DNA of 64,000 bases from Bordetella parapertussis (GCA_945861275.1 CAMATZ010000014.1:1-64000), one strand, 5' to 3'. Numbered from the stretch's first letter, positions 28,847 to 39,143 are shown. Notes: generated by a model not told the origin, from the sequence alone. Made by a program: numbers and translations.

Positions 28847-29824
28847 ATGTTTAAAAACAAATACTTATTGATTGTCCTGCTGAGCGCAATTTACGGCGCG
28901 GCAGCCCACGCGCAATCGTGGGTGCCGCAACGCAATGTCGAAATCGTTCACGGCTCCGCGCCCGGCGGCAGCAACGACAAGCGCGCGCGCGAAATCGAAA
29001 AGGCGTTGGCCGAGACCAAACTGATATCCCCCTCGATGACGGTCGTCAGCAAGGCGGGCGGCGGCGGCAGCATCGCCATGGCCTACACCAATCAGCACCC
29101 CGGCGATGGCCACTATCTACTGCTGGGCGGCTCCACCATGATCAGCAACCACATCATCGGTGCTTCCAAAATGCATTACACGGATTTCACGCCGATCGCT
29201 TCGCTGACGAACGATTACATCGTGTTCGCCGTGAATGCGGATTCGCCACTCAAGACCGGCAAGGATTTGCTCGAGCGTTTGAAAACCAGGCCGCAGTCGC
29301 TGTCGATCGGGTTCGCCAGCGCGTTTGGCAACAGCCGTCACATCGGTGCCGGCATGTTGATCCGGGCTGTGGGCGGCAGCCCGCGCGATCTGAAGACCGT
29401 GGTGTTCAAAGGTTCCGCCGAGGCCGTCAGCGCATTGCTCGGCGGGCACATCGATGTGGCGATACTCGGCGCCATCAATTCGGTCGTGCATCTGGGCGGC
29501 GGACGCATGCGCGTGCTCGCGGCCGCCACACCGCGGCGCTTTGGCGGCGCGCTGGCGCATGTGCCGACGTGGCAGGAACTCGGCGTCGACGTGGTGTCGG
29601 GCAGTTGGGGCGGCGTGTTCGGCCCGCGCAATCTGCCCGCCGCGCAGTTGGCGTTCTGGGAAGATGCGATGCGCAAGGTGGCGCAAAATCCCGGCTGGAA
29701 ATTCGATCTGGAAAGAAATTACTGGTCCGAGGATTTTGCCGTGGGCGCGCATTTCAGAAAAGAACTGGAAAAAGATTATGCAGATACAAAAAAAGTGCTG
29801 ACGGATGTCGGATTGGCGAAATAA
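28847..29824 (+). CDS. Bug/TctC-like substrate-binding protein (tandem copy 1)
   Basis: MFKNKYLLIVLLSAIYGAAAHAQSWVPQRNVEIVHGSAPGGSNDKRAREIEKAL. Confidence 0.88.
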   Translation: MFKNKYLLIVLLSAIYGAAAHAQSWVPQRNVEIVHGSAPGGSNDKRAREIEKALAETKLISPSMTVVSKAGGGGSIAMAYTNQHPGDGHYLLLGGSTMISNHIIGASKMHYTDFTPIASLTNDYIVFAVNADSPLKTGKDLLERLKTRPQSLSIGFASAFGNSRHIGAGMLIRAVGGSPRDLKTVVFKGSAEAVSALLGGHIDVAILGAINSVVHLGGGRMRVLAAATPRRFGGALAHVPTWQELGVDVVSGSWGGVFGPRNLPAAQLAFWEDAMRKVAQNPGWKFDLERNYWSEDFAVGAHFRKELEKDYADTKKVLTDVGLAK

Positions 29825-29836
29825 CCGGGAGATGTC

Positions 29837-30829
29837 GTGAACTATTTTTCTAAAACCTTAGCCACGTTTTTTCTGCTGCCGGGCCTGCTGCTCGGCGCCG
29901 CCGCGTGGGCGCAGCAAGCGTGGGCGCCTACCAAAAACGTCGAGATCGTGGTCAGTTCCGTGCCCGGCGGCAGCAATGACAACACCGGCCGCCAAATCGA
30001 AAAAGCGCTGAACGAATTAAAGCTGGTGCCGACGTCCACCACTATCGTCGGCAAACCCGGTGGCGGCGGCAACATCGCCATGGTCTACACCAACCAGCAC
30101 CCGGGCGACGGGCACTACCTGATGGTGGCGACTTCGTCGATCAACAGCAACCATATCATCGGCGCCAGTAAATTAAGTTACCACGACTTCACGCCCATCG
30201 CGTCGCTGGTCAATGATTACGTGGTGTTTGCCGTGAAGACGGATGCGCCGTTGAAGAGCGGCAAAGACCTGATGGCGCAGTTCAAGGTGAAACCACAATC
30301 GATTGCAATCGGATTCGCCAACACCTTCGGCGGCAGCCGTCACATCGCGGCGGGTCTGCTGATCAAGGCGGTGGGCGGCAATCCGCGCGATCTCAAAACG
30401 GTGGTATTCAAAGGTTCCGCCGAAGCGATTACCGCGTTGCTGGGCGCCCATCTCGAAATGGTGATCATCGGCGCGGGCAATGCAGTGGCGCATGTGCAAA
30501 ACGGACGCATGCGCGTGCTTGCAGTGACCGCGCCGCAGCGGCTGACGGGTGCATTGTCGTCGGTGCCGACATGGCGAGAATTGGGGGTCGATGTGGTGTC
30601 GGGCAGCTGGCGCGGCGTGATGGGGCCGAAGAACATGCCCGCGGCGCAGCTTGCGTATTGGGAAAACGCCATGCGTCAGGTGTCGCAAAACGCAGGCTGG
30701 AAGACCGACATGGAAAGAAATTACTGGTCCGAGGATTTTGCCGTCGGCGCGCAGTTCAGAAAAGATCTGGAGCAGGATTACGTTGATACCCGCAAGGTAT
30801 TGTTGGATCTTGGATTGGCCAAACAATAG
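29837..30829 (+). CDS. Bug/TctC-like substrate-binding protein (tandem copy 2)
   Basis: WAPTKNVEIVVSSVPGGSNDNTGRQIEKALNELKLV. Confidence 0.88.
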   Translation: MNYFSKTLATFFLLPGLLLGAAAWAQQAWAPTKNVEIVVSSVPGGSNDNTGRQIEKALNELKLVPTSTTIVGKPGGGGNIAMVYTNQHPGDGHYLMVATSSINSNHIIGASKLSYHDFTPIASLVNDYVVFAVKTDAPLKSGKDLMAQFKVKPQSIAIGFANTFGGSRHIAAGLLIKAVGGNPRDLKTVVFKGSAEAITALLGAHLEMVIIGAGNAVAHVQNGRMRVLAVTAPQRLTGALSSVPTWRELGVDVVSGSWRGVMGPKNMPAAQLAYWENAMRQVSQNAGWKTDMERNYWSEDFAVGAQFRKDLEQDYVDTRKVLLDLGLAKQ

Positions 30830-30849
30830 TGCATTCAGTCGGAAATTAA

Positions 30850-31836
30850 ATGAATAAAAACAAAACCCTATATATTGCATTTATTGCGCTTGCGTGTTGC
30901 GGCATCGCACACGCCCAACCATGGTCACCGACAAAAAACGTCGAGATCGTCGTCACCTCCGCGCCCGGCGGCAGCAACGACAAGACCGGACGCTCGATCG
31001 AGAAATTACTGAATGAACTGAAACTCGTGCCCGCCACGCTGACAGTGGTGAACAAACCCGGCGGCGGCGGCAACATTGGTTACGCCTATATGAATCAGCA
31101 CGTGGGCGACGGACATTACCTGCTGGTGGGCACGACCGGGCTGCACAGCGGACATATCGTCGGCTCCAGCAAACTGAGCTACCGCGACTTCACGCCGATT
31201 GCCTCGCTGTTCAACGACTACGTGGTGTTCGCGGTCAATGCCAACTCGCCGCTCAAAACCGGCAAAGACCTGATCGAGCGCCTGAAAAAAGACCCGCAAT
31301 CGATCGCCCTCGGCTTCGCCACCACGCTGGGCAGCCACAACCACATCGCCGCAGGCTTGCTGATGAAATCTGCCGGCGGCAGCCCGCGCGATTTGAAACC
31401 CGTGGCATTCAAAGGCTCGGCTGAAGCGGTGACCGCATTGATGGGCGCGCATCTTGACCTGGTCACCACCGCGGCCGGCAACGTAGCCGCGCATATGCAA
31501 AGCGGGCGCTTGCGTGTGCTGGGCGTGTCGGCGGATAAACGCCTTCCCGGTGTGTTCGCCAGCGTGCCGACGTGGAAAGAACAAGGCGTGAATCTGGTCT
31601 ACGGCGGCTGGCGTTCGATCGTGGGATCGAAGGGCCTCACCGCGGCGCAGGTGGCGTACTGGGAAAACGCACTGCGCAAAGCATCGCAAAGCGCAGAATG
31701 GAAAACCGAGTTGGAGCGCAACTACTGGTCGGATGATTTTGTTACCAGCGTGCAGTTTCGCAAAGACCTCGACAAGGATTACGCGGATATGAAAGCGGTG
31801 CTGACGGAATTGGGAATGGCGCGGGCTGATCGATAG
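30850..31836 (+). CDS. Bug/TctC-like substrate-binding protein (tandem copy 3)
   Basis: WSPTKNVEIVVTSAPGGSNDKTGRSIEKLLNELKLV. Confidence 0.88.
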   Translation: MNKNKTLYIAFIALACCGIAHAQPWSPTKNVEIVVTSAPGGSNDKTGRSIEKLLNELKLVPATLTVVNKPGGGGNIGYAYMNQHVGDGHYLLVGTTGLHSGHIVGSSKLSYRDFTPIASLFNDYVVFAVNANSPLKTGKDLIERLKKDPQSIALGFATTLGSHNHIAAGLLMKSAGGSPRDLKPVAFKGSAEAVTALMGAHLDLVTTAAGNVAAHMQSGRLRVLGVSADKRLPGVFASVPTWKEQGVNLVYGGWRSIVGSKGLTAAQVAYWENALRKASQSAEWKTELERNYWSDDFVTSVQFRKDLDKDYADMKAVLTELGMARADR

Positions 31837-32052: not shown

Positions 32053-32688
32053 TTGTTTTCCATCCAAAATCTGACCCACGCCTACGACAGCGCCGCGGTG
32101 CTGAAGGTCGCGTCGTGGCACGCCGAGCAGGGCGCGCAGTGGCTGATGCAGGGGCCGTCGGGCAGCGGCAAGACCACTCTGCTGCATGTGCTGGCGGGCA
32201 TACTGCGCCCGACGTCGGGGCAGGTTTTAGTGGCGGATCAGGATGTGCTGGCGCTGTCGCCTTCCGCGCTGGATCGTTTTCGCGGCAAACATGTGGGTAT
32301 CGTATTGCAGCGGCTGCATTTAATCGACAGCCTCTCGGTGATGAACAATCTGTTGCTGGCGCAATACATGGCAGGCGAGGCGCAGGACGCGGCGCGGGTG
32401 CGCGAGGTGCTGGGCAGTCTGGACATGGGCGGCAAGGCCCACGCGCGTCCGCATGAGTTGTCGCATGGACAGGCGCAGCGCGTGGCGGTGGCGCGCGCGG
32501 TGGTGAATAAGCCCCGGCTGTTGCTGGCCGACGAGCCGACCTCGAATCTTGACGATACGCGCTGTTTGCAGGTGCTGGATTTGCTGCAGGCGCAGGCCAA
32601 GGCGTGTGGCGCAACGCTGGTGATTGCCACCCACGATCAGCGCATCAAGGCGCGGGTGGCGAATCATTATGAATTGGCGGCAGCATGA
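32053..32688 (+). CDS. ABC transporter ATP-binding protein (LolD/MacB-like)
   Basis: Walker A GPSGSGKTT; LSHGQAQRVAVARAVV; LLLADEPTSNLD. Confidence 0.9.
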   Translation: MFSIQNLTHAYDSAAVLKVASWHAEQGAQWLMQGPSGSGKTTLLHVLAGILRPTSGQVLVADQDVLALSPSALDRFRGKHVGIVLQRLHLIDSLSVMNNLLLAQYMAGEAQDAARVREVLGSLDMGGKAHARPHELSHGQAQRVAVARAVVNKPRLLLADEPTSNLDDTRCLQVLDLLQAQAKACGATLVIATHDQRIKARVANHYELAAA

Positions 32689-33896
32689 ACCTCGCCACCA
32701 TCAGCTTCGCCTATTTAAAAGCGCGCAGCCTCAACACGCTGTTGAATATTCTGCTGCTGGCGTTGGGGGTGGCGACGATTGTGTTGCTGCTGCTCGCCAC
32801 CACGCAACTCGATCAGCGCATGCGTCGCGATGCGCAGGGCATTGATCTGGTGATCGGCGCCAAAGGCAGTCCGATGCAGGTGATTCTGTCGAGCATTTAT
32901 CATCTGGACGTGCCGACGGGCAATATTCCGTACAAGCAGGCGCTGGAGATCGTGAAGCACCGCATGGTGAAAAAAGCGATTCCACTGGCGCTGGGCGATT
33001 CGTACAAGGGCGCGCGCATCGTCGGCACCACGCCGGACTATCTGGCGCACTACGATGCCAAATTCACGGCGGGCAAGCGCTGGGAAAAACCGCTCGAAGC
33101 GGTGATTGGCGCAGAAGTCGCCGCACGTACAGGCTTAAAACTCGGCGCAAAGTTTCACGGCTCGCACGGGTTGGGTGACGCGGGCGAGGCGCATGAAGAG
33201 CACCCCTATGTGGTTGCCGGCATACTGGAGCGCAGCGGCACGGTGCTCGACCGGCTGGTGATCTGCAGCGTTGAAAGCGTGTGGGCGATGCACGCCGGGC
33301 ATCTCGATATCAAGGACATCAGCGATATCGCCAGCCAGATGAAGGAAGAAGACAAGGAATACACCGCGCTGCTGATTCAGTACGCATCGCCGATCGCCGC
33401 CGCAATTCTGCCGCGCTACGTCAACAATAATTCCGCGATGCAGGCAGCCTCACCCGCCTATGAAACCGCGCGCCTGTTTAGCATCATCGGCGTGGGTGTC
33501 GACGTGTTGCGCGGCTTTGCGCTGGTGCTGGTGTTCAGTGCCGGGCTGTCGGTATTCATCGCGCTTTACAACGCCCTGAATGAGCGACGCTACGATCTGG
33601 CGGTGATGCGCACGCTGGGCGCGCGTCCGCTGACGTTGATGATGCTATTGCTGTTTGAGGGTTTGCTGCTGGCGCTGATCGGCGGCGTGCTCGGCATCGT
33701 GTTGGGTCATGTGCTGGCGGAATTGCTGGGCTACGCATTAAAAGCGGCGCAACAGGTGTCAGTCACCGGCTGGACCTGGGTTGCGGCCGAATGGTGGGTG
33801 CTGGCGCTGGCGGCGGGCGTGGGGGTAGTCGCGGCATTGATTCCGGCGTGGCGCGCGTATCGCACCGATATCGCGGGCACTTTGGCGCGCGGATAA
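32685..33896 (+). CDS. ABC transporter permease, FtsX/MacB fold
   Basis: Overlaps the ATPase by 4 bp; NERRYDLAVMRTLGARPLTLMMLLLFEGLLLALIGGVLG. Confidence 0.88.
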   Translation: MNLATISFAYLKARSLNTLLNILLLALGVATIVLLLLATTQLDQRMRRDAQGIDLVIGAKGSPMQVILSSIYHLDVPTGNIPYKQALEIVKHRMVKKAIPLALGDSYKGARIVGTTPDYLAHYDAKFTAGKRWEKPLEAVIGAEVAARTGLKLGAKFHGSHGLGDAGEAHEEHPYVVAGILERSGTVLDRLVICSVESVWAMHAGHLDIKDISDIASQMKEEDKEYTALLIQYASPIAAAILPRYVNNNSAMQAASPAYETARLFSIIGVGVDVLRGFALVLVFSAGLSVFIALYNALNERRYDLAVMRTLGARPLTLMMLLLFEGLLLALIGGVLGIVLGHVLAELLGYALKAAQQVSVTGWTWVAAEWWVLALAAGVGVVAALIPAWRAYRTDIAGTLARG

Positions 33897-33933
33897 TGTC
33901 ATAGCGGACAATTCTGACAATGGGAGGCGCAAC

Positions 33934-34200
33934 ATGAGCCTGCGTTTAATTTTTATCGTGCTGGCGGCCCTGTGGATGACCACGCCCGTGTTGGCGCAGG
34001 AAAAAAACAAGGAAAAACCGCATACCGCTGCGGAAGTGCAAAAAGACGTTCATGATCATCTGGCGATGGCCGACGCACATATCGCCGCCGCCAAGTGTCT
34101 GCAAAGCGGCAAGGGCGAAAAGGAATGCCATGCGCAGCTCGCCAAAGACTGCAAGGGCCTGGGCGTGGGCAAGTTGTGCGGTATGAAGCATAAGCATTGA
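33934..34200 (+). CDS. Exported Cys/His mini-protein, paralogue A
   Basis: 88 aa; signal peptide; EKPHTAAEVQKDVHDHLAMADAHIAAAKCLQSGKGEKECHAQLAKDCKGLGVGKLCGMKHKH. Confidence 0.8.
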   Translation: MSLRLIFIVLAALWMTTPVLAQEKNKEKPHTAAEVQKDVHDHLAMADAHIAAAKCLQSGKGEKECHAQLAKDCKGLGVGKLCGMKHKH

Positions 34201-34287
34201 AGATGCCCATAAAAACAACAAGTTATTGACACCAAAGGCGGTTGCGGTAGTATCTTCATTAATTGATGGTCTTCGAAGGAGCTTGCG

Positions 34288-34812
34288 ATGAAATTTTTGC
34301 CAGTAGTTTTTGCGGTGTTAATTGGCGTGTCCGCTGCAGCGTGGGCGCAGCAAAAAGGCCCAGCCGCCGGCAAAGATGTTTATGCGAAAGACCCCCTGGC
34401 CGATGCGCAAAGCCAGGCGCAATGGGCCGACAAGCCGCTGCCCGAAATGAAAGGCGTGCTGTCCTGGAAAATGCTGGGCGAGGTCAAGCCGGTAAAACAA
34501 AAAGACAAGTTCGTGCCGGAATTCGCCAAATCGATTTCGGCGCTCGACAAAAAAGAAGTCAGGATTCAGGGCTTCATGATGCCGCTGGACATGGGTGAGA
34601 AGCAGGCGCGCTTCATACTCACCGCGCTGCCGCCGTCGTGCTCTTTCTGTTTGCCCGGCGGACCGGAGCAAATGGTCGAAGTGCAAGCCAAGTCACCGGT
34701 CAAATACGGCTTCGAGCCGATACTGCTCACCGGCAAACTCGCGGTGCTCAAAGACGATCCGATGGGGCTTTATTACCGGCTCACCGACGCGGTGCTCACT
34801 GGCGGCAAGTAG
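34288..34812 (+). CDS. DUF3299 domain-containing periplasmic protein
   Basis: VRIQGFMMPLDMGEKQARFILTALPPSCSFCLPGGPEQMVEV. Confidence 0.85.
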   Translation: MKFLPVVFAVLIGVSAAAWAQQKGPAAGKDVYAKDPLADAQSQAQWADKPLPEMKGVLSWKMLGEVKPVKQKDKFVPEFAKSISALDKKEVRIQGFMMPLDMGEKQARFILTALPPSCSFCLPGGPEQMVEVQAKSPVKYGFEPILLTGKLAVLKDDPMGLYYRLTDAVLTGGK

Positions 34813-34838
34813 CGTCCATTGTGATTTTCCCGCTCTGA

Positions 34839-35198
34839 ATGCGCACACGCATGTCACGCCGGTTTTTCCATTATTTCTGCGTACTCCTGCTGCTGCTCGC
34901 GCAGCAGGGCGCGCTCGTGCATGCCACGTGGCACGCGGGCGAGGATGCGCACACGCACGCTCACGAAGGTCATGCACATGACCAGGACGGTGATAATGAA
35001 TCACCGGTAGGCAGCAGCCAAAGAAACCTTTGCGCTTTCGATCTCGCCTTCGGCCAAGTGCTGGGCGGCATACATGGCGCGTGTTCGCTGCCGCTTGCCG
35101 TTGATCTGCCGGCAGCGATCGCCAGTTACACCTTCAATCCCCGGCTCGGTTCCGAAGCCGTTCCCGCGCACTCGCGCGGCCCACCGCACCACCTCTGA
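34839..35198 (+). CDS. Exported His-rich protein (putative metal binding)
   Basis: HATWHAGEDAHTHAHEGHAHDQDGD after a hydrophobic N-terminus; C-terminal Cys. Confidence 0.65.
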   Translation: MRTRMSRRFFHYFCVLLLLLAQQGALVHATWHAGEDAHTHAHEGHAHDQDGDNESPVGSSQRNLCAFDLAFGQVLGGIHGACSLPLAVDLPAAIASYTFNPRLGSEAVPAHSRGPPHHL

Positions 35199-35292
35199 TC
35201 GCCGGCGCCAGCCGCCGGAACTCCGTAAGTTTTTTTGCGCGACACGCGGGTTTCAGCGTGGCCGCGCGGCGTTCATTTCAGAGGAAAATCAC

Positions 35293-37386
35293 ATGTTCAG
35301 CAGAACTGCTCTAGTGGCTGCGGTTGCCGCAGCTATGGCACAAACAACAGCGCACGCACAAACCAAACCGCCAACAGAATTACCACCCGTCATCGTTACC
35401 GGCAATCCGCTCGGCAGCGAACTGTTCGAATTGGTGCAGCCGATTTCGGTGCTCGGCGGGCAAGAGCTCTTTCAATTGCGCCGCTCCACCATCGGCGAAA
35501 CCCTGAATGGCTTGCCCGGTGTCAGCTCGACTTCCTTCGGCCCCAATGCAAGCCGCCCGGTAATACGCGGTCTGGACAGCGACCGCATACGCATTTTGCA
35601 GAATGGCACCGGTGTGCTGGATGCGTCGGCACTGAGTTTCGACCACGCCGTGGCGATTGACCCGCTGGTGGTGGAGCGTGCGGAAGTGGTGCGCGGTCCA
35701 GCAGCGCTGCTCTACGGCGGCAGCGCGGTGGGTGGCGTGGTTAACCTCATCGACAATCGTATTCCGCAGTTTGCAGTGAACGGCATCAGCGGGCGCGGTG
35801 AGGCGCGTTTCGGTGGTGCCGAGCGTGAAAAAGCAAACGGCGTGGTGCTCGAAGCCGGCAACGGGCGCATAGCGCTGCACGCAGACGCCTATACGCGCGA
35901 TACCGATGATCTGAAAATCAAAGGCCCCAATATCTCGCCGCGTTTGCAGGCTGTTGATCCGGCACGCGCGGTGACCAACGGCACGTTGCCCAACAGCGCC
36001 TCGCGTTCCGGCGGGGGTGCTGCGGGCGTTTCGCTCACCTGGGATCGCGCTTACGCCGGGTTATCTTACGCCGGCTTTGATACGAACTACGGCACCGTTG
36101 CGGAGCCCAACGTGGCCATCGACATGAAAAGCACTCGGCTTGATTTCGCGGGTGAAGTGCGTGAAATCAACGCTTTTATCACCGCTGCAAAATTCAAGTT
36201 TGGCCGCACCGACTATGAACATCGCGAAACTGATCTGGGCGTGGTCGCCACCACTTTTCGCAGCAAGGGTTACGACTCGCGGCTCGAACTGACGCACGCG
36301 AAACTCGGCCCGCTGAAAGGTGCGTTTGGGCTGCAGCTGAGTGATCTGGATTTTTCTGCGCTGGGCGCGGAAGCGTTTGTCCCTTCGACCCGCACCAACG
36401 CGCGAGCAGTTTTCGTTTACGAGGAAATTCAATTCGGCAAACTGAACATCTCATTCGGCGGACGCCATGAACGCACCGACGTGCGCACCGATGGCGGCGG
36501 GCCTATCGACCCCAACACCGGCAACCCGCGTTTCGACCCGGCGCAAGCCCGCACCTTCAACGCCAACAACGGTTCACTAGGCGCGTTATGGCGCTTCACG
36601 CCAGCGCTGGCGCTGGCCGTCAACGGCACCTGGAATGAGCGCGCGCCGACCTTTTACGAGTTGTACGCCAACGGCCCGCACGCCGCAACCAGCGCTTACG
36701 AAGTGGGAAATACCACGTTCAGCAAAGAGAAATCCACCGGCCTTGATGCCGCGCTGCGTATGAAATCCGGCGCGCATTCAGGCAGCGTGAGCGTGTTTCA
36801 GAACCGCTTTAAAAATTTCGTCACGCTGTTTAACGCAGGCAATAGGCGCAGCGCCGATGGCGAATTGAATCCGGTTGATGCGGACGGCGATGGCGTGGCC
36901 GACGGCTCTGGCGAGGAAATTCTGCGTGAACTGCAGTATCGCGCGGTGCCCGCACGCTTTCGTGGCGTCGAAGCCGAGGGCAAATTCCGCGTGCTGACAC
37001 AGGGCGCGAGCACGCTTGATCTGCAGCTCAAGTTTGATTGTGTGCGCGCGGAGGATTTGAGCACCGGCCTGCCGCTGCCGCGTATCGCGCCGCGTCGTTT
37101 TGGCGTGAGCTTCGACTACCGGCGCAACGCATTCGGCGCCCGCCTCGATGTGACGCATGTGGCGGGGCAGGGCCGCGTAGCCGCCAACGAATTGCCCACG
37201 GACGGCTACACCCTGCTCAATGCAGGCGTAAGTTATAGCGTGAAAATGCCGCTGGGCCACATTGATTTGTTTGCGCGCGGCGTGAATCTTTTGAATGAAG
37301 ACGCACGCAATCACGTGTCGTTTTTGAAAGACATCGCGCCGCTCGGTAAACGCAGCGGGCAGATAGGTTTGCGCGCGCAGTTCTAG
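35293..37386 (+). CDS. TonB-dependent outer-membrane receptor
   Basis: Plug LPGVSSTSFGPNASRPVIRGLDSDRIRILQNG, RAEVVRGPAALLYGGSAVGGVVNLIDNRIP; start MFSRTALVAAV. Confidence 0.9.
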   Translation: MFSRTALVAAVAAAMAQTTAHAQTKPPTELPPVIVTGNPLGSELFELVQPISVLGGQELFQLRRSTIGETLNGLPGVSSTSFGPNASRPVIRGLDSDRIRILQNGTGVLDASALSFDHAVAIDPLVVERAEVVRGPAALLYGGSAVGGVVNLIDNRIPQFAVNGISGRGEARFGGAEREKANGVVLEAGNGRIALHADAYTRDTDDLKIKGPNISPRLQAVDPARAVTNGTLPNSASRSGGGAAGVSLTWDRAYAGLSYAGFDTNYGTVAEPNVAIDMKSTRLDFAGEVREINAFITAAKFKFGRTDYEHRETDLGVVATTFRSKGYDSRLELTHAKLGPLKGAFGLQLSDLDFSALGAEAFVPSTRTNARAVFVYEEIQFGKLNISFGGRHERTDVRTDGGGPIDPNTGNPRFDPAQARTFNANNGSLGALWRFTPALALAVNGTWNERAPTFYELYANGPHAATSAYEVGNTTFSKEKSTGLDAALRMKSGAHSGSVSVFQNRFKNFVTLFNAGNRRSADGELNPVDADGDGVADGSGEEILRELQYRAVPARFRGVEAEGKFRVLTQGASTLDLQLKFDCVRAEDLSTGLPLPRIAPRRFGVSFDYRRNAFGARLDVTHVAGQGRVAANELPTDGYTLLNAGVSYSVKMPLGHIDLFARGVNLLNEDARNHVSFLKDIAPLGKRSGQIGLRAQF

Positions 37387-37515
37387 CAGCGCAACGGGTG
37401 TTGCAAGCGGGTGCGGGCGGTGTTTGTCGTAATGCGTAAAGCGGTCGATAATCACGCCGCCTGCGATGTTGTTCACGTGAATCGAAGTACTAGTAAACTA
37501 ACAGGAGAAAACAAA

Positions 37516-37788
37516 ATGAACACACGCTGGATTTCAATATGGGCGGCTGCCTTTTTGATAGCTACTCCCGCGCTCGCGCAGGACAAGGCCAAAAAAGGCG
37601 AAAAACCTCACACTGCTTCCGAAGTGCAAAAAGACATACTCGATCATCGTGCGATGGCCGATGCGCATCTCGCCGCCGCGAAGTGTCTTGAGGGTGGCAA
37701 AGGCGAGAAGGAATGCCATGCCCAGCTCGCCAAGGACTGCAAGGGGCTGGGTATCGGAAAGCTGTGCGGCATGAAGCATAAGCACTAA
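37516..37788 (+). CDS. Exported Cys/His mini-protein, paralogue B
   Basis: MNTRWISIWAAAFLIATPALAQ + EKPHTASEVQKDILDHRAMADAHLAAAKCLEGGKGEKECHAQLAKDCKGLGIGKLCGMKHKH. Confidence 0.85.
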   Translation: MNTRWISIWAAAFLIATPALAQDKAKKGEKPHTASEVQKDILDHRAMADAHLAAAKCLEGGKGEKECHAQLAKDCKGLGIGKLCGMKHKH

Positions 37789-37827
37789 AAAATGCGATAA
37801 AACTGTATGTTTTAAATATAATTTCTC

Positions 37828-38523
37828 ATGAACGCTGATCCGGTTTTGATCCCCAGAACGCATGACCCTACGCTGCTGATACTGTGCGTAGCTGGCAGTG
37901 CGGTTGCGCATGTGCTGATGCTGACGCTGGCGCCGGGCTGGCGGGCTGCAAAGGATGCGCCGCCGATTCCGCTTACAGTTGAACTTAGAAAGCCGCCACC
38001 CGTAATCGAACCGCCCAAGCCTTTGCCAATGGAAACGCGGCCCAAGCCGCCAGATCGCCCGAAGGCAAAGCCAGAACCTGTGCCGCGCGAAGTACCGCCG
38101 CCCGAGCAACCGCGCACAGCGCCGATACTGACTGCGCCACCGGAAGCGCCGCTCGCGCCGGCTGCAGCGGTGGCGCCGGCGCAAAAACCTGCGCCGCAGC
38201 CTCCACCTGAAGCGCCACGTCCAACCGCCGCACTGGCGCCGGTGACAGCACCGCGCTCGGATGCAGCCTATCTCAACAATCCGCGTCCCGCGTATCCGCT
38301 CGCGGCACGGCGGCGCGGCGATCAAGGTACCGTGTTAATCCGGGTGCTGGTTACCGCCGAAGGACTTGCCGCGAGTGTGACGCTCGAAAAAACCAGTAAT
38401 CATCCAGCGCTGGATGAAGCCGCGTTGACAGCGGTGAAATCGTGGCGCTTTGTCCCCGCGCGCCAGGGCGGACAGGCGGTGGAAGCGCCGTACGTGGTGC
38501 CGATTGTCTTTAAAGTCGAGTAG
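37828..38523 (+). CDS. tonB: TonB family energy-transducing protein
   Basis: Proline-rich spacer; C-terminal YPLAARRRGDQGTVLIRVLVTAEGLAASVTLEKTSNHPALDEAALTAVKSWRFVPA. Confidence 0.88.
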   Translation: MNADPVLIPRTHDPTLLILCVAGSAVAHVLMLTLAPGWRAAKDAPPIPLTVELRKPPPVIEPPKPLPMETRPKPPDRPKAKPEPVPREVPPPEQPRTAPILTAPPEAPLAPAAAVAPAQKPAPQPPPEAPRPTAALAPVTAPRSDAAYLNNPRPAYPLAARRRGDQGTVLIRVLVTAEGLAASVTLEKTSNHPALDEAALTAVKSWRFVPARQGGQAVEAPYVVPIVFKVE

Positions 38524-38600: not shown

Positions 38601-39143
38601 ATGAACCCCGAAGTCTTTCACGGCACCACCATTCTTTCGGTGCGGCGCGGCAACGTTGTTGCACTCGGCGGCGACGGGCAGGTCACGCTCGGCAATGTGG
38701 TGGTGAAATCCACCGCGCGCAAAATCCGCCGCCTGTATCACGACAAAATCCTCGCCGGTTTTGCCGGCGGCACCTCGGATGCGTTCACCCTGTTCGAGCG
38801 CTTTGAAGCCAAGCTGGAAAAACATCAGGGCAACCTGATGCGCTCGGCGGTGGAACTGGCCAAGGATTGGCGCACCGATCGCATGCTGCGCCGTCTCGAA
38901 GCGATGCTCGCCGTGGCCGATCGCGAGCATTCGCTGATTATCACCGGCGTGGGCGACGTGCTGGAGCCGGAACTCGGCATCGTCGCCATCGGCAGCGGCG
39001 GCTCATTTGCGCAGGCAGCCGCGCGCGCGTTGCTGGAAAATACCGATCTTGCGTCGCGGGATATCGTGAAGAAATCGCTGGAAATTGCAGGTGATCTTTG
39101 TATTTATACCAATCAGCAGCATGTGATTGAGGAACTGACGTGA
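38601..39143 (+). CDS. hslV: HslV, ATP-dependent protease subunit
   Basis: [39 protein letters not shown]. Confidence 0.97.

Follow-up and report, generated by a model that had tools for sequence, protein, structure and literature searches.

Background

In Vibrio, the Zur-repressed operon zrgABCDE (VP_RS01455-01475) encodes a zinc-binding DUF2796 protein (ZrgA), a permease (ZrgB), an ATPase (ZrgC), a DUF2607 protein (ZrgD) and a DUF3299 protein (ZrgE) (PMC9817125), and zinc import via Zrg requires zrgA in V. cholerae (PMC9820375). Studies of Vibrio and Pseudomonas disagree on the direction of transport, into or out of the cell, by MacB-type Zrg systems: modelling cast PA4064/PA4065 of P. aeruginosa as a MacB exporter, and the mutants point to export of a pyochelin-cobalt complex (PMC11481552). 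We have analyzed a 64,000-nucleotide stretch of Bordetella parapertussis DNA (GCA_945861275.1, CAMATZ010000014.1:1-64000; hereafter the window), in which positions 32053-38523 hold eight plus-strand genes. This locus is a variant of the known Zrg-like zinc system and carries a protein family not described before, represented by two small exported Cys/His proteins, here called mini1 and mini2. The passage of zinc through the periplasm downstream of a TonB-dependent receptor is poorly understood, and the minis, which recur with ZnuA-type as well as MacB-type systems, offer a simple, purifiable handle on both that passage and the direction of transport.

As in Vibrio Zrg and P. aeruginosa PA4063-PA4066, the locus sets an ATP-binding cassette (ABC) ATPase, an FtsX/MacB-type permease, a DUF3299 protein and a small periplasmic His-containing protein side by side, and it shares with Zrg systems a zinc-gene context, seen here in relatives. 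It differs from both in having a mini between permease and DUF3299 and a DUF3299 protein of a distinct, weakly scoring class, and in that no ZrgA (PF10986), no Zur gene and no Zur box at the locus was found in the window genome. In proposed role only, as an exported zinc-binding protein beside a zinc importer, the mini is comparable to ZrgA/PA4063, ZinT and AztD (PMC6689063, PMC8561739); unlike these, it has about 65 mature residues and two predicted helices, and neither its sequence nor its fold had a significant counterpart in the PDB.

Results

The locus. A sequence-only reading of the window had listed the eight genes and pointed to a resemblance to Zrg. Gene calls and Pfam searches reproduced the row with the same coordinates, and its permease, ATPase and DUF3299 genes do make up the zrgB, zrgC and zrgE set. 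The genes, with the gene that follows them, are:

32053-32688, plus strand: ABC ATPase, ZrgC-like, of LolD/FtsE/MacB type (PF00005 ABC_tran, 8.7e-31; TTG start)
32685-33896, plus strand: FtsX/MacB-type permease, ZrgB-like (PF02687 FtsX, 9.1e-15; PF12704 MacB_PCD, 4.8e-09)
33934-34200, plus strand: mini1, exported Cys4/His protein of 88 aa, flanked by the FtsX and DUF3299 genes
34288-34812, plus strand: DUF3299 protein, ZrgE-like, of a divergent, weakly matching class (PF11736, 33 bits, above the 22-bit cut-off)
34839-35198, plus strand: His-rich exported protein, DUF2946-like but below cut-off (PF11162, E 0.0086, 17.3 bits against 23.7)
35293-37386, plus strand: ZnuD-like TonB-dependent receptor (barrel 1.6e-40, plug 2.6e-20)
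37516-37788, plus strand: mini2, 90 aa, 76% identical to mini1, in the interval between receptor and TonB
37828-38523, plus strand: TonB (PF03544 TonB_C, 1.1e-21)
38601-39143, plus strand: hslV (Proteasome family, PF00227), a conserved downstream neighbor outside the system

The TTG at 32053 pairs with an ATG in an alignment with relatives, and the ATPase and permease genes overlap by four bases. ATG starts were chosen for the receptor (35293) and mini2 (37516), for both of which the longest open reading frame (ORF) begins further upstream. Homologues of the His-rich protein adjoin the receptor in relatives, and hslV lies 3' of the locus in many Burkholderiales-type relatives. No ZrgD (DUF2607) was matched by Pfam among the locus genes, the genome as a whole not having been searched for it.

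A family of small exported proteins. Both minis have a signal-peptide-like N-terminus. They had no above-cut-off match in Pfam or NCBIfam, and PDB sequence searches returned nothing; judged by their sequences, they are a conserved family, undescribed so far. An alignment of 27 mature sequences from several bacterial families, reaching down to 39% identity, has six invariant residues (H44, H51, C57, C67, C75 and C84 in mini2 numbering) and a near-invariant C-terminal CGMxHxH tail. Between mini1 and mini2 the nonsynonymous divergence (dN) is ~0.06 and the synonymous divergence (dS) ~1.2 (dN/dS ~0.05), and this mostly synonymous pattern points to purifying selection on both copies.

Structure prediction, which the sequence-only reading had proposed as a check, gave a two-helix hairpin for the mature mini (AlphaFold; mean predicted local distance difference test score, pLDDT, 86.8; predicted template modelling score, pTM, 0.70), and two such models had no significant fold relative among solved PDB structures. 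In the model C57 and C67 lie on opposite sides of the hairpin turn and, since both flank it, could form a disulfide pair or share a metal. Affinity to CsoR/FrmR-like helical metal regulators was considered and rejected, as FrmR was reached by Foldseek with non-significant E values of 2.3 and 5.1 for the two models. The putative signal peptide likewise argues against a DNA-binding regulator, and the suggestion that the minis act as sensors was not upheld. Weak matches to DUF4148, pentapeptide MXKDX and other families were dismissed as signal-peptide or chance matches.

Distribution and gene order. Minis were found in 27 of the 100 relatives searched, at 29 places. Two of these are second copies (mini2 in the window and its counterpart in the sister genome G011) and one sits at the end of a contig, leaving 26 assessable first-copy loci, all of which have the order FtsX-mini-DUF3299 (26/26). 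This recurrence, together with the mainly synonymous differences between mini1 and mini2, takes the order of the locus beyond chance. Profile searches found the mini in 18 of 349 sampled genomes of the same order, other families included, with few occurrences in another order of the phylum.

Twin minis occur only in the window genome and in G011 among those 100 relatives, with mini2 at the same position in the two genomes. Mini1 groups with the minis of G004 and G005 and mini2 with those of G011, a pattern that disfavors a fresh tandem duplication within the genome and suggests an old duplication followed by loss, or recombination. The slot between FtsX and DUF3299 is empty in many relatives, and in some (L149:6024-6287, L153, L155 and L156) it is filled by an exported, PepSY-like protein containing His and Cys residues. 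Because the slot can hold another protein or nothing, the ABC-DUF3299 core is the constant part of the system and the mini a replaceable periplasmic accessory.

Zinc genes around the mini. The extended order in relatives is Zur-ZIP-CobW-ABC-FtsX-mini-DUF3299-(DUF2946-like)-(receptor)-TonB-hslV. Zur, ZIP and CobW stand directly 5' of the locus on the same strand, their FUR, Zip and cobW domains were confirmed by Pfam, and the locus-adjacent Fur-family gene is not the same gene as the high-scoring Fur orthologue located elsewhere. In G007 an ExbB gene lies just 5' of Zur. Zur is known to control the zupT and cobW genes in another betaproteobacterium, C. metallidurans (PMC11340326, PMC10882993).

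The mini also occurs outside this arrangement. In the more distant genome G149 (L127:6592-7026), a gene with ZnuA on one side and an ABC ATPase gene on the other encodes one protein with two fused mini domains. In G189 a mini lies between a receptor gene and a Zur-like ORF, the latter called by similarity to a relative's Zur, its fragment having no FUR match in Pfam. A ZnuA-mini-ZnuD-like receptor cassette, with toxin-antitoxin genes nearby and no MacB-type pair, is present on three Polaromonas plasmids of Antarctic glacier origin (L231:4898-8305, L232 and L233); the mini is annotated there as a hypothetical protein and had no relative in the phage collection, and the plasmid paper mentioned the ZnuA and receptor genes (PMC6015842). 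In several relatives the mini comes with the ABC pair and the locus has no receptor, and in G107 no recognizable zinc neighbors surround the mini within the stretch read. Since it accompanies ZnuA, a Zur-like ORF, a receptor or an ABC pair in different genomes, the mini is not bound to any single transporter, and by this comparison of neighborhoods the common factor of its contexts is zinc acquisition, not one partner. The sequence-only reading would have been undermined had homologues lain away from DUF3299 genes and TonB receptors; they adjoin both.

The receptor. Among solved structures the receptor has one close match, ZnuD of Neisseria meningitidis (4rdr, E 3.6e-55; next best 6e-15), with which it shares plug and barrel. 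All four residues of the high-affinity zinc site of ZnuD (D99, H100, E340 and H499) are conserved, as D117, H118, E312 and H463; the ZnuD paper prints D90 (PMC4557270), which was taken as D99 because position 90 of the aligned chain is Thr. Motifs around these residues are kept in most mini-associated receptors. The window receptor differs from ZnuD in lacking the His-rich extracellular loop 3 described in PMC4557270 (the alignment skips from ZnuD chain residue 255 to 315, the window receptor having almost no sequence opposite) and, at 315 bits, in falling below the 950-bit cut-off of the NCBIfam family Zn_piracy_ZnuD. The kept site and the Zur, ZIP and CobW neighbors in relatives bear out the zinc link put forward in the sequence-only reading, and we would place the locus in zinc biology, with zinc as the probable metal.

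DUF3299 classes and ZrgA. DUF3299 proteins in the sampled order fall by score into a strong and a weak class. The strong class accompanies ZrgA in 46 of the 50 ZrgA genomes. The weak class is present in 15 of the 18 mini genomes against 48 of 349 overall (p 8.5e-12, uncorrected for phylogeny), and it takes in all mini genomes that have a DUF3299 match in Pfam. No ZrgA (PF10986) match was found in the window genome or in any tested mini genome.

Zinc genes of the window genome. The window genome (5.5 Mb in 95 contigs, 96.65% complete) has a single Fur-family gene, which scores as high as Fur orthologues do, and a single ZIP gene, unlinked to the locus; neither ZnuA nor ZnuB was found in it, Zur-ZIP-CobW does not precede the ATPase gene, and the locus showed no Zur-type box. 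A like absence was noted in several further members of the genus, and ZnuA/ZnuB went undetected in most of the genus members sampled. The mini also marks zinc loci in environmental betaproteobacteria that include a genus mostly devoid of detectable ZnuA/ZnuB in its sampled members. Should the locus take up zinc, it could be the principal high-affinity zinc route of this genome.

Discussion

We propose that the locus is probably a Zrg-like zinc-starvation system, with the minis as its periplasmic zinc carriers in the place of ZrgA. The ZnuD-type receptor, powered by TonB, would move zinc across the outer membrane into the periplasm. There the exported helical-hairpin minis would bind it through their conserved His and Cys residues and relay it between the receptor and the components of the inner membrane, namely the MacB/FtsX-type ABC pair and its DUF3299 partner, which would most likely work in zinc uptake. 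The minis would replace the ZrgA of Vibrio and Pseudomonas here and add to ZnuA elsewhere. Metal binding, the identity of the metal, hand-over and direction are all steps that we infer. That the minis bind metal is plausible, and uptake is the most likely direction; these are also the two weakest steps, and direction is questioned because the P. aeruginosa homologues have been interpreted as a pyochelin-cobalt exporter (PMC11481552).

A more far-reaching proposal, which we put forward tentatively and would not yet expect to hold in full, is that the minis are a novel class of periplasmic zinc metallochaperone: a two-helix Cys4/His2 module of about 65 residues, interchangeable and occurring singly, as twins or as a tandem fusion. 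Such a module would pass zinc on from receptors of ZnuD type to inner-membrane systems that are unrelated to each other, substituting for ZrgA in Zrg-like loci and supplementing ZnuA in others.

Three other explanations were weighed. The ABC-DUF3299 genes could form a MacB-type exporter, induced by zinc starvation and discharging a metallophore or surplus metal, with the mini as its periplasmic partner. The window permease does have both MacB_PCD and FtsX domains, and the PA4064/PA4065 model and mutants point the same way; the V. cholerae findings (PMC9820375) speak against it, the occurrence of minis with ZnuA and a ZnuD-like receptor, where a MacB-type pair is missing, fits uptake better, and we regard export as unlikely. 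Somewhat less probable still is a structural or redox role, in which two disulfides would lock the hairpin, aiding the folding or docking of the receptor, DUF3299 protein or permease, and any metal binding would be incidental. Four invariant Cys in an exported protein would suit such a role, as would the confident hairpin model with C57 and C67 placed either side of its turn, but H44 and H51 are just as invariant and the CGMxHxH tail nearly so, for which disulfides are insufficient, and the constant neighbors of the mini are zinc genes instead of a single fixed partner protein. That the metal is copper, cobalt or nickel seems very improbable: the tail and the Met residues could suit copper, and the related P. 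aeruginosa operon is tied to cobalt (PMC11481552), but the Zur, ZIP, CobW, ZnuA and ZnuD-like neighbors and the kept ZnuD site argue for zinc.

Several points weigh against the carrier proposal itself. Many MacB-type pairs are exporters or mechanotransmitters, and the four Cys could merely form disulfides in the oxidizing periplasm. The P. aeruginosa PA4063-PA4066 system has, as noted above, been read as an exporter. Mutual exclusion of mini and ZrgA is, taken alone, weak (p 0.09, uncorrected for shared ancestry). Of the 48 genomes with a weak-class DUF3299, 33 have no detectable mini, and ZrgA is absent from every one of these except one; with about two-thirds of weak-class genomes thus without a mini, and nearly all of those without ZrgA, the ABC-DUF3299 core can work without either. 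Zur control, as suggested in the sequence-only reading, was not found in the window genome: a Zur gene is missing, and scanning with TGTTATANNATAACA or by a 15-mer score picked out no Zur box at the locus, although clear boxes are present in relatives that lack a mini or are of ZrgA type (L147, L139 and L153 among them). Alignment of the regions upstream of the ATPase and receptor genes revealed no shared operator. Zinc-dependent expression of the locus is hypothetical in this genome, which has neither a Zur gene nor a Zur box there. From the metal-import interpretation of the sequence-only reading, the zinc link stands and Zur control does not; nor does the description of the system as complete, because the locus contains no ExbB/ExbD and no recognized solute-binding protein.

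Additional observations

The receptor gene beside the mini in G030 (L179:693-2073) is split over several frames, as in a decaying pseudogene or through sequence errors. An exported protein of ~460-490 aa with a coiled-coil-like start is encoded beside ZnuA or the ABC pair at L143:7056-8522, L127:8066-9457 and L147:4682-6064; of its copies at zinc loci, one had a weak porin-like match (BBP2) and another had none. A literature search on COG3495 retrieved no papers. In the window itself, three tandem genes for TctC-type tripartite tricarboxylate receptors occupy positions 28850-31836, 5' of the ATPase gene, where relatives carry Zur-ZIP-CobW.
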